Of a stretch of 57,895 nucleotides of DNA, positions 46,585 to 54,023 are shown in pieces. Within the stretch, counting starts at the first letter, position 1. Every line of letters begins with the position of its first letter. Source of the DNA: Streptococcaceae bacterium (GTDB lineage Bacteria; Bacillota; Bacilli; Lactobacillales; Streptococcaceae); assembly GCA_031254295.1 (NCBI GenBank), contig JAIRUS010000033.1, positions 1-57,895 of the forward strand, given 5' to 3'. The notes under the pieces were generated by a model. It did not search any database and was not told where the DNA came from. It saw only the letters and a list, made by a program, of their open reading frames with translations. A program made the position numbers and the translations under genes.

Positions 46585-48183
46585 TCAAAGATCGTTAGTT
46601 TCGTCAGGCTTTATATTTGTCAATGAGACATCTTTGAAATAATTATCCTCGAAAACCTCAATATGTTCAACTCTATCAACTGTTGTCTCTGGAACAGAAT
46701 TTACATCATTTTCGTCAGGTAAGATTTCTGTAGTGTTAAAGTCTAGATCGTCCATGTCCAAGTCATCAAAATCAGCATCGAAATCGTCCTCATCAGTATA
46801 AGGCATATAAGGCATATAAGGCAGAACAATGGCAAACTCTGTGCCAAGGCCTTCAACAGACTTAACTCCCACTGTGCCACCATGAAGCTTGATGATATCG
46901 TAGGCAATTGCAAGACCTAGTCCAGTACCTCCAGCATCATGGGTTCGGGCTTTATCTACACGATAAAAGCGATCAAAAATTTTAGGAAGGTCTTTAGCAG
47001 GGATTCCCATTCCCTGATCGCTAATCTTGATAATCAACTGAGCAGGAGTAACTGAGAGTGTCACGGTGACAGTTCCACCATTTGGTGAATATTTAACAGC
47101 ATTTGACAGAATATTATCTACCACTTGACTCATCTTGGAAATGTCAATTTCTGTCCATATTTGCTCATCAGGGAAGTCAGTTTGATATTGAATAGGCAAT
47201 GTATCGTCATTATCCGCCACTTGTTTAAAGCGTCCGACAAGATGAGTGAGAAAGGCTACGATATTGACCATTTCTTTTTGGAGTTCGGTTCTTCCAAGAT
47301 CCATACGAGACAAATCAAGGATATCAGATACCATTTGTATCATATGATTAGCTTCGTTTAGTGTAGTGCTGACAAAATCTCGTGCTAAATCTGGGCGATT
47401 GAGCGCGCCATCTTGAAGAGTTTCAAGATAAGATTTGATGGTGGTCAATGGAGTGCGTAATTCGTGAGAAACATTTGAAACAAAGGCGCGCTGCTCACGC
47501 TCAAGTTTTTCTGATTCTGTGACATCGTGTATGACAGCGACAATACCGGAAATATTGCCTTTTTCTCGACGAAAGATAGAGAAATTAACTCTGAGACGCA
47601 CATACTCGCCATAAGAATTTTCTGAGTCAATCGAGATATCAGGGGTACGTTCAAGTAAATCACGAAACGCGAAATAGTTGTCAATTTTTAAGGCTTCCGC
47701 AATGGTCTGAGTGAGGATAATATCAGTACTTGTAGAGAGGAGATGAAGGGCGGCAGTATTGGCGAGTATCACTCGACCTGCTCGGTCTGTGGCAATCACG
47801 CCATCGGTCATGTAGGCGAGAATTCCATTGAGCTGATTCCGTTGATTTTCAAGATTTTCTTGAGAGAGCTGTAGGTTCTCACCAAGTTTCATTACCATTT
47901 CAGATAGATTATTTATCTCCGCTGAGTTAGTTTCGTAAGGCTGAATAGAAAAGTCTCCTCGGGAAATTCGATCAACAGCATGGCTAGCTTCTTTTATGGA
48001 ACGGACAAGGTCAAAGGCAAAGAAAGTTGAGATAGCCAAACTTATTACAAAAAGAGCTAGGACAATCTGAACGAGAGTAAGTTGATGGTGGATAAGGTTG
48101 ATCGCAGCAAGAAGAAGCGCAAAAAGTAGTAGGACAAAAACTACTACTTTTGTAATCAAACTTGAAATTTGCTTATTATTCAT
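46585..48183 (-). CDS. walK: sensor histidine kinase WalK/VicK with acidic C-terminal tail
   Basis: A 532-residue kinase: two membrane helices close together (about 11-31 and 36-56), giving almost no outside domain, then HAMP (about 57-108), PAS (about 115-220), HisKA with SHELRTP (His240), and HATPase_c with DNILSNAVKYSPNGG, DQGMGIP and GTGLGLAI. WalK controls wall hydrolase genes through WalR. The core ends near residue 455. A 77-residue Asp/Glu-rich tail follows, beginning YMPYMPY from a 12-bp DNA duplication, which is not typical of streptococcal VicK as I know it. It lies 34 bp after walR. Confidence 0.93.
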   Translation of the reverse strand: MNNKQISSLITKVVVFVLLLFALLLAAINLIHHQLTLVQIVLALFVISLAISTFFAFDLVRSIKEASHAVDRISRGDFSIQPYETNSAEINNLSEMVMKLGENLQLSQENLENQRNQLNGILAYMTDGVIATDRAGRVILANTAALHLLSTSTDIILTQTIAEALKIDNYFAFRDLLERTPDISIDSENSYGEYVRLRVNFSIFRREKGNISGIVAVIHDVTESEKLEREQRAFVSNVSHELRTPLTTIKSYLETLQDGALNRPDLARDFVSTTLNEANHMIQMVSDILDLSRMDLGRTELQKEMVNIVAFLTHLVGRFKQVADNDDTLPIQYQTDFPDEQIWTEIDISKMSQVVDNILSNAVKYSPNGGTVTVTLSVTPAQLIIKISDQGMGIPAKDLPKIFDRFYRVDKARTHDAGGTGLGLAIAYDIIKLHGGTVGVKSVEGLGTEFAIVLPYMPYMPYTDEDDFDADFDDLDMDDLDFNTTEILPDENDVNSVPETTVDRVEHIEVFEDNYFKDVSLTNIKPDETNDL

Positions 48184-51867: not shown

Positions 51868-53607
51868 ATGTCAACTACTATAATTATCATTCTTGTCGTC
51901 GTATTCGTCTTGATTGTCGGTGTTTATATTTTTTCAATGCTGATGCGTCGTCGCACAGAAAGCCAGATCATTGCGCTCGAGGAACGCAAGGAAGAACTTT
52001 TTGACTTGCCTATTCAAGAAGAGTTTGACAAGGTCAAGGCTATGCATTTGGTTGGTCAATCTCAAAAAGTTTATCGTGAATGGCATCAAAAATGGGTTGA
52101 TTTATCACAAAACTCATTTGCAGAGCTTGAAAATTCTATCTTTGAAGCGGAGCAGTTAAATGATAGCTTCCGTTGGGGAAAGGCTAAAGATTCAGCATTA
52201 GAGGCTGAAAGTTTGATTAAGATGATGGAGACTGATGCTGATGCGATTCGCAAAGGTCTGTCAGAGCTGATGGAGCAGGAACGATACAATTCAACTAAGA
52301 TTCAAGATGCGCTTGATATGTATGATCAACTCCGTAACCATATTGCAGATAATGCTGAGCATTATGGGTCAACTATTGGAATGATTGAAGAATCACTAAG
52401 CAATATTGAAACTGAATTTAATCAATTTGTTGAGTTAAATTCAAAGGGTGATCCAGTCGAAGCGGCTGAAATTCTAGAAATCGCAGAAGAACATACCATT
52501 GCTTTGAATAATATTACGGATCGTATCCCTGAAATTATTCGTTTGGTTGACGATGAGTATGAGAAGCAGTTGACAGAGCTTGAGGATAACTATCAAGACT
52601 TCACAAAGAAAAATTATAAGTTCCCTGAAACTTTTAATCTTGAGCAATCTATCAAGAATGTTCGTAGTCGTCTAAAAGAGACAAAGGAAAATCTTGAGCG
52701 CTTTGAGCTTGACCGTGCTGAAAATCTTTTACAAGATGTCAAGCAACAAATTGATTCACTTTATGAAATCTTTGCCAAAGAATATAATGGCCGTCGTCAA
52801 TTTGAAAAAAATGCACCAATTTTAAAGAATTATATTGAGCATACACGTGAAAATAATCGTACTTTGTTGCTTGAAATTGACCATGCGTTGCAGTCTTATC
52901 TCCTGCCAGATAACGAGAAAGCTTCTGTTCGTGCCTTTGGACTTCGTTTAGATGATTTGGAAATTGAAGCAGATAATATCTTGAAGTTGAAAGATATGCA
53001 AGTTCAAGACCAGCCATACTCAATGAATAATCGTCGTGTCAATGCAGTTATTACAGCTCTTCATGAGATTGAACAAAGCCAAGTTCAGATTAATGATAAA
53101 ATCGCTTCCCTGTCGATTGACGAAAAGAAGGCGCGTAAAACAGCCCAAGAATTTGATACGCGCGTACGCATGATTAAACGTTTTGTTGAAAAGCGCAATC
53201 TTCCAGGACTTCCAACAGCTTATCTTGATTTATTCTTTACAGTATCAGGTCAGATTGAAAAACTCTTTAAAGAAATGAATAAGATTCGTATTAATATGGA
53301 CCAAATCAAACATATGATTGATTTATCTCAGGAACAACTCGAGCGATTGATGAATGAGACCGATAAATTGCTTGATAATGCCTCGTTAGCAGAGCAATTG
53401 ATGCAGTATGCGAATCGCTTTAAGTCATCAAATGCGATGGTGGCAGATGCCATGCAACGCTCGCTTATCTTGTTTGAACGTGAGCGTGACTATACGGCTT
53501 CATTTAATACAATTTCAACTGCTATTGAAACAGTAGATCCAGGAGCGACCGATCGTATTGTGAATGTCTATGAAAATACGAAGTCACTTCCGGAATATCG
53601 TTTGTAA
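51868..53607 (+). CDS. ezrA: septation ring formation regulator EzrA
   Basis: A 579-residue protein with one N-terminal membrane helix (about 4-25, IIIILVVVFVLIVGVYIFSM) and a long cytoplasmic region of spectrin-like coiled-coil repeats. EzrA binds FtsZ and coordinates division and wall synthesis in low-GC Gram-positives. The length is normal (about 560-580). The family-conserved C-terminus DRIVNVYENTKSLPEYRL is present and is then repeated, as DNA, three more times after the stop codon. Confidence 0.94.
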   Translation: MSTTIIIILVVVFVLIVGVYIFSMLMRRRTESQIIALEERKEELFDLPIQEEFDKVKAMHLVGQSQKVYREWHQKWVDLSQNSFAELENSIFEAEQLNDSFRWGKAKDSALEAESLIKMMETDADAIRKGLSELMEQERYNSTKIQDALDMYDQLRNHIADNAEHYGSTIGMIEESLSNIETEFNQFVELNSKGDPVEAAEILEIAEEHTIALNNITDRIPEIIRLVDDEYEKQLTELEDNYQDFTKKNYKFPETFNLEQSIKNVRSRLKETKENLERFELDRAENLLQDVKQQIDSLYEIFAKEYNGRRQFEKNAPILKNYIEHTRENNRTLLLEIDHALQSYLLPDNEKASVRAFGLRLDDLEIEADNILKLKDMQVQDQPYSMNNRRVNAVITALHEIEQSQVQINDKIASLSIDEKKARKTAQEFDTRVRMIKRFVEKRNLPGLPTAYLDLFFTVSGQIEKLFKEMNKIRINMDQIKHMIDLSQEQLERLMNETDKLLDNASLAEQLMQYANRFKSSNAMVADAMQRSLILFERERDYTASFNTISTAIETVDPGATDRIVNVYENTKSLPEYRL

Positions 53608-53966
53608 TAGGAATTGAGTAAGAGAGGATAGAAACTCTAAGCGCTAAAGCGCCAAGATTTTCTAATCCCGACCGCATTGTGAATGTCTATGAGAATACGA
53701 AGTCATTACCCGAGTATCGTTTGTGATAGAATTTGAGTAAGAGAGGATAGAAACTCTAAGCGCTAAAGCGCCAAGATTTTCTAATCCCGATCGTATTGTG
53801 AACGTCTATGAGAATACGAAGTCACTTCCAGAATATCGTTTGTGATAGGAATTGAGTAAGAGAGGATAGAGTCTCTAAGCGCTGAAGCGCCAAGATTTTC
53901 TAATCCAGATCGTATTGTGAATGTCTATGAGAATATGAAGTCAGTTCTAGAATATCGTTTGTAATT
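53551..53966 (+). repeat. 119-bp tandem repeats made from the ezrA 3' end
   Basis: The last 57 bp of ezrA (from 53551) and a 62-bp spacer recur at exact 119-bp steps, with copies beginning at 53670, 53789 and 53908. The ezrA-derived parts would all encode forms of DRIVNVYENTKSLPEYRL and stop. Copies 2 and 3 differ from ezrA only by synonymous changes; copy 4 has three amino-acid changes. Each spacer has an AGAG/CTCT stem and a GCGCT/AGCGC stem. Confidence 0.85.
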
Positions 53967-53991
53967 AAAAACCGCTTTGTGCGGTTTTTTT
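53967..53991 (+). terminator. terminator after ezrA repeats
   Basis: AAAAACCGC and GCGGTTTTT form a stem with a TTTGT loop and a T7 run. Confidence 0.9.
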
Positions 53992-54023
53992 GTAAATAAA
54001 AAGCCCAGATATCTGAGCTGATT

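Follow-up and report, generated by a model that had tools for sequence, protein, structure and literature searches.

A dispersed hairpin repeat with fixed-length copies of gene boundaries in a Streptococcaceae bacterium

Background

Why should a conserved gene be followed by three more copies of its own last codons, each in frame and closed by a stop codon? The ezrA gene of a Streptococcaceae bacterium raises this question in the stretch of DNA analysed here (the window, 57,895 nucleotides, which is contig 26 of a draft genome, G000, of 2.12 Mb in 181 contigs). The original prediction, made from the sequence of the window, was that each copy had once been a real gene end, either because an element inserts at this site and restores the end each time or because different ezrA alleles were added by recombination. 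We examined the array, its own genome, its congeners and a neighbouring genus (g8).

Results

Displaced ezrA ends in a 119-bp array

The ezrA reading frame matches Pfam EzrA (E 8e-170), and its stop codon (53605-53607) lies within the first copy of the repeated stretch. TRF reports a single tandem array 3' of the gene (53549-53962; period 119, 3.5 copies, 0% indels), as expected from the exact 119-bp steps that had been predicted. The coordinates and the 62-bp spacer given at that time are also correct, and folding confirms the hairpin proposed for the spacer, which is bulged (DNA minimum free energy -9.7 kcal/mol, z -2.9). The parts of the array are as follows.

51868-53607, forward strand: ezrA coding sequence (open reading frame with Pfam EzrA match), the last 58 bp of which are copy 1 (T1)
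53550-53608, forward strand: T1, the live ezrA gene-end copy, beginning after a C of a CC
53626-53668, forward strand: hairpin 1, GGATAGAAACTCTAAGCGCTAAAGCGCCAAGATTTTCTAATCC
53669-53727, forward strand: T2, displaced ezrA end that differs from T1 at 8 silent positions and at 0 replacement positions
53745-53787, forward strand: hairpin 2, identical in sequence to hairpin 1
53788-53846, forward strand: T3, displaced ezrA end that differs from T1 at 4 silent positions and at 0 replacement positions
53864-53906, forward strand: hairpin 3, slightly diverged
53907-53965, forward strand: T4, the oldest ezrA copy, relaxed (1 silent, 4 replacement), directly before the original terminator
53966-53992, forward strand: terminator-like hairpin and T run behind the last copy, from AAAACCGC to GCGGTTTTTTT

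All four copies are in frame with a stop codon: copies 1 to 3 translate identically as DRIVNVYENTKSLPEYRL, and copy 4 as DRIVNVYENMKSVLEYRL. Copies 2 and 3 together carry 12 silent and no replacement differences from the gene (the predicted example, CTT-CCG against TTA-CCC, is correct), where random change predicts about 9 replacements, and a count of zero was reached in 0 of 4,000 simulations. The clearest single case is copy 2, whose six private changes are all silent. The near absence of non-silent change in these two copies, and the loss of this constraint in the last one, are thus as originally described. We argue against an assembly error as the source of the copies, because the four ezrA copies differ from one another and because further examples occur in better assembled genomes (G019, 2 contigs; G049, 3 contigs). 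Elsewhere in the window (46797-46823), a perfect 9-bp tandem repeat of three copies lies in a sensor-kinase-like gene and gives a short repeated amino acid motif.

One hairpin family at seven loci

When the ezrA array was compared with its own genome by BLAST, two other contigs were matched, in the spacer part only. The shared hairpin has the form GGATAGA…TCTaATCC with covarying arms, and the pattern GGATAGA-N10..34-TCTAATCC has eight exact matches in G000 as against none for a reversed-pattern control. The exact pattern has no match in the other four genomes of the genus, and elsewhere in the family it gives scattered single matches that resemble chance. With a covariance model of the hairpin, seven loci were detected in G000 (E <= 6e-6), with 12 hairpin matches in total, distributed as follows.

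ezrA: three hairpins, gene end duplicated
tRNA-Arg CCT: three hairpins, gene end duplicated
murG: two hairpins, gene start duplicated
hydrolase gene: one hairpin, gene end duplicated
copY: one hairpin, gene start duplicated
metallo-hydrolase gene: one hairpin, gene start duplicated
upstream of a membrane-protein gene with a THF riboswitch: one hairpin, riboswitch half duplicated

In the eight hairpins that were aligned, the outer arms show no variation and contain one bulged A, and the inner stem varies with paired changes (both partners are changed in five pairs, and 94% of cells are paired; pairing as high was reached in 0 of 500 shuffles). The element consists of the hairpin (42-43 bp) and about 10-15 conserved bases at its left, the arm being preceded in the aligned copies by a conserved GAGG, not GTAG, and relative to genes it occurs in either orientation. 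A comparison with Rfam, which included the ezrA region, gave no RNA family for the repeat, and the phage, plasmid and viral collections gave no match.

Two further ideas were rejected. Solo left half-sites (GAAATGAGGATAGA), considered as pre-existing targets, are absent outside the known loci, the remaining two-mismatch matches being at about the control level; the hairpin tip CTAAGCGCTNAAGCGCC, considered as a marker of the phenomenon, is also present in unrelated Bacillota, where duplicated flanks are missing in most cases. Several other palindromes were seen. The tip CTAAGCGCTNAAGCGCCNAGA recurs within different palindromes of unrelated Bacillota (L044-L063), about 10 times as often as a rough, composition-free estimate. 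The congener G004 has about 58 model matches for same-tip hairpins, many of them nested in larger palindromes (L015 1200-1640, L012, L014, L016) that often begin right at stop codons (AATAAGATGTGA...), with three in tandem behind an rpmA-like gene. A different, GC-rich palindromic element that shares its tip, CTAAGTGGCTAAAGCCACAAG, with the neighbouring genus lies immediately upstream of the tRNA-Arg array (on L004, reverse strand, about 1770-1935), and G053 (L142, L145-L147) has nested palindromes, one in the loop of another, at several sites.

A copied left flank of fixed length

At all seven loci the sequence to the right of the first hairpin repeats the left flank of that hairpin, with scores above those of shuffles and with alignments that start 73-80 bp upstream of the hairpin. 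At these seven unrelated loci the first copied base lies 76, 75, 73, 77, 77, 73 and 76 bp from the hairpin foot (mean 75.3, SD 1.7). The copied stretch starts at a CC within the gene (or riboswitch) and extends beyond the gene boundary; the direct copies span 59-84 bp of adjoining sequence, and a short CC match is present at the junction of every locus. A link of the copied stretch to stop codons was dropped, because it also covers gene starts, a tRNA end and a riboswitch.

Boundary copies number one more than hairpins, the third murG copy having shrunk to a few bases. Among the seven loci of G000 we found no complete hairpin that lacks a following flank copy, and no intact hairpin was seen after a last copy. 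In some arrays (metallo-hydrolase locus, G048, G050) the last unit terminates in a piece from the left side of the element; at the metallo-hydrolase gene (L095, reverse strand, 640-680) the left half, GAAATGAGGATAGACC, stands without a right half behind the last copy.

Empty sites and a related architecture in a neighbouring genus

Congeners have empty sites wherever this was checked. In G001 and G004 a terminator-like hairpin directly follows ezrA, and at the murG, metallo-hydrolase and hydrolase genes the congeners have empty sites with no hairpin. The original prediction took a copy number that is invariant among relatives as the mark of a simple old duplication; copy number varies (no extra ezrA copies in G001 or G004), so this is not what is observed.

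Arrays of the same build occur in the neighbouring genus, at gnd and metK, but their units, again of fixed length, are longer (168-173 bp across the two genes and six species), all copies of both genes beginning at ACTTCGG. At gnd there are three units in G019 and one each in G048, G050 and G051, G046 and G052 have a left remnant only, and the other g8 genomes inspected have none; at metK there is one unit in G047 and two in G049. In G047 the element lies between two metK ends that are identical over 82 bp, the pattern expected of a fresh insertion. Behind the last metK copy of G049 comes the terminator region that stands immediately after metK in G044 and G054, which identifies that copy as the original end.

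Silent bias and the origin of the displaced ends

Over the nine array loci with coding parts (the coding frames of the short copied stretches were assigned by hand), the displaced copies differ at 42 silent and 18 replacement positions, as against about 46 replacements expected under a null that treats all differences as random, and the observed count was never reached in 4,000 runs. A fair expectation is lower, since differences that arise on a live copy are silent anyway; we estimate it at roughly 60% replacements, and the observed 30% is still well below this. For the three 5' loci, the copies differ at 4 of 91 positions within the coding part as against 22 of 127 in the non-coding part (P 0.005). 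The displaced copies thus bear the signature of former gene ends, in support of what had been proposed for ezrA. Copy 3 of metK in G049 has three silent and eight replacement differences, mostly in its last third, and the simplest reading is that older copies relax, as in this case and in ezrA copy 4.

Displaced gnd copies of g8 are closest to the gene end of their own species in five of six cases, so other species are not the usual source, and no donor species was found for them. Of the two origins first proposed, the second, recombination of alleles, is the best fit to the silent differences if it takes place within the species. On the simplest reading, the live end has been swapped by recombination among the alleles of the species, with older ends left behind a hairpin and units restacked by unequal exchange. 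With G000 a draft in 181 contigs and no close strain to set beside it, we infer this stacking of alleles.

Discussion

A candidate mechanism

The reading that we favour, to which we would give an even chance, is that a REP/MITE-like hairpin element makes a fixed and unusually long target duplication, and that later allelic recombination stacks the units and leaves the displaced copies as fossil alleles. A small palindromic mobile repeat would land near a gene boundary (its anatomy is described above), and its insertion would leave direct copies of the adjoining 59-84 bp on either side, from a CC about 75 bp off the hairpin foot, so that the gene would retain an intact end or start while the original one is displaced behind the hairpin. 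The repeated gene end could then serve as homology for unequal recombination, with a sister chromosome or with the DNA of other strains, which would alter the number of units and overwrite or restack the live end; each displaced copy would in that case be the frozen end of an earlier functional allele, and the oldest, most distal copy would decay afterwards.

The idea that an element restores the gene end holds insofar as an element does lie at the boundary and the copy keeps the gene whole, but an ezrA-specific island or attachment site is not supported: this hairpin stands at six other loci as well, three of them gene starts, and ezrA adjoins no integrase and no larger island and gives no match in phages, plasmids or viral contigs. 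No integrase reading frame was found in the window flank or in the sampled loci, and the seven targets are unrelated. Movement of the element was not observed, and no cognate transposase or other enzyme was found. The only Y1 transposase of G000 belongs to an IS200-type element and sits with other palindromes, and G019 has no Y1 gene, for which reasons a link to IS200/RAYT was rejected; nor did the IS families searched include an autonomous partner sharing the hairpin arms as its inverted repeat. Two further observations count against the favoured reading: a target duplication of 59-84 bp is far above what is usual for bacterial elements, and the left element fragment after some last units is unexplained by a single clean insertion.

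Alternative explanations

The excess of one gene end over the hairpins, the distal position of the oldest copy and the silent differences are in keeping with site-specific mini-cassettes, each bringing a replacement gene end (like the attP of some integrative elements) that is added on the gene-proximal side and displaces the old end, as is the start word ACTTCGG shared by gnd and metK. We consider this unlikely, though the strongest of the alternatives, in view of one hairpin family at seven unrelated targets that include gene starts, and of the lack of an integrase or donor among the loci and genomes searched; furthermore, the identity of the two G047 metK ends and the closeness of gnd copies to the gene of their own species indicate local duplication. 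Somewhat less probable again is that replication slippage or template switching at a pre-existing hairpin gave the tandem duplications, in which case the unit would have been immobile at the time. The CC match at all seven junctions and the left fragments of the element after some last copies resemble such events, but random slippage does not account for a distance as uniform as 75.3 ± 1.7 bp at seven loci, an intact hairpin should stand after the last copy if the duplication were a simple tandem one, where none is seen, and congeners lack any hairpin at these sites.

Conservation of the copies for a function of their own, such as that of an RNA structure in a 3' UTR or leader (hairpins combined with small open frames), would account for the covarying arms and for copies that retain their sense and stop codons; the relaxed ezrA copy 4, the occurrence of the hairpin in both orientations relative to genes, the lack of an Rfam match for the repeat and the missing arrays in congeners make it improbable. 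Least credible, and in our view very improbable, is a plain old tandem duplication with neutral decay: the exact 119-bp period speaks for it, but the purely silent differences of copies 2 and 3 (0 of 4,000 simulations) and the same hairpin and spacing at six other loci speak against it.

Comparison with known systems

Several known systems share features with the arrays described here. MIRU of Mycobacterium tuberculosis are small units between genes that occur in tandem at some loci and have ends which leave the neighbouring genes translatable; they retain only an overlapping stop and start, whereas dozens of gene bases are copied here. The tyrT (RtT) repeats of E. coli are tandem units behind a tRNA gene, each with a copy of the tRNA 3' end, and the tRNA-Arg locus resembles them, but here one hairpin family also serves protein genes, gene starts and a riboswitch. 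At the attL and attR sites of integrative elements in gene 3' ends, the gene end is likewise restored and the original displaced, with silent differences; unlike these, our loci have no integrase or cargo, and one hairpin has many unrelated targets. The likeness to CRISPR and integron arrays is limited to the n+1 count and the older-distal order.

REP/BIME sequences and REPINs with their RAYT (TnpA-REP) enzymes are likewise short, bulged, dispersed intergenic hairpins (PMC8266576, PMC3733652, PMC3116915); REP clusters can be reiterated in tandem together with flanking DNA (PMC3733652), and bulges in some REP hairpins are required for TnpA-REP activity (PMC8266576). Unlike REP, the repeat described here has 12 hairpin matches at seven loci only, its copied flank is of fixed length and crosses a gene or riboswitch boundary, and no cognate RAYT was found; where REP have GTAG or a similar tetranucleotide at the foot, the aligned copies have a conserved GAGG, not GTAG. 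The MITE-like repeats RUP and YPAL (reviewed in PMC2229807) are likewise small non-coding palindromes, and they have target duplications; that of YPAL is 3-26 bp (PMC2229807), as against 59-84 bp with constant spacing here, and our element has no terminal TA and no matching IS was found. None of REP, TnpA-REP hairpins and YPAL joins one hairpin family to a fixed 75-bp copy across gene boundaries, and we found no earlier description in the open literature (subscription papers were outside the scope of the search).

Significance

We tentatively suggest, with rather more doubt than confidence, that these tiny hairpin elements may form an undescribed class in the Streptococcaceae, entering gene ends and starts by way of machinery that measures out the DNA it duplicates (in one subfamily about 75 bp up to the hairpin foot, in the other about 140 bp up to the hairpin tip), such that insertion into conserved genes would be harmless and past boundary alleles archived. 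On the favoured reading, the fixed 75-bp duplication would also point to a putative enzyme with a measurable ruler. Conserved genes (ezrA, murG, metK, gnd, tRNA) would then admit a non-coding hairpin element of about 45-90 bp harmlessly, because it duplicates a fixed length of the boundary, and the displaced copies could be used, as fossils of earlier gene ends, to read past recombination.
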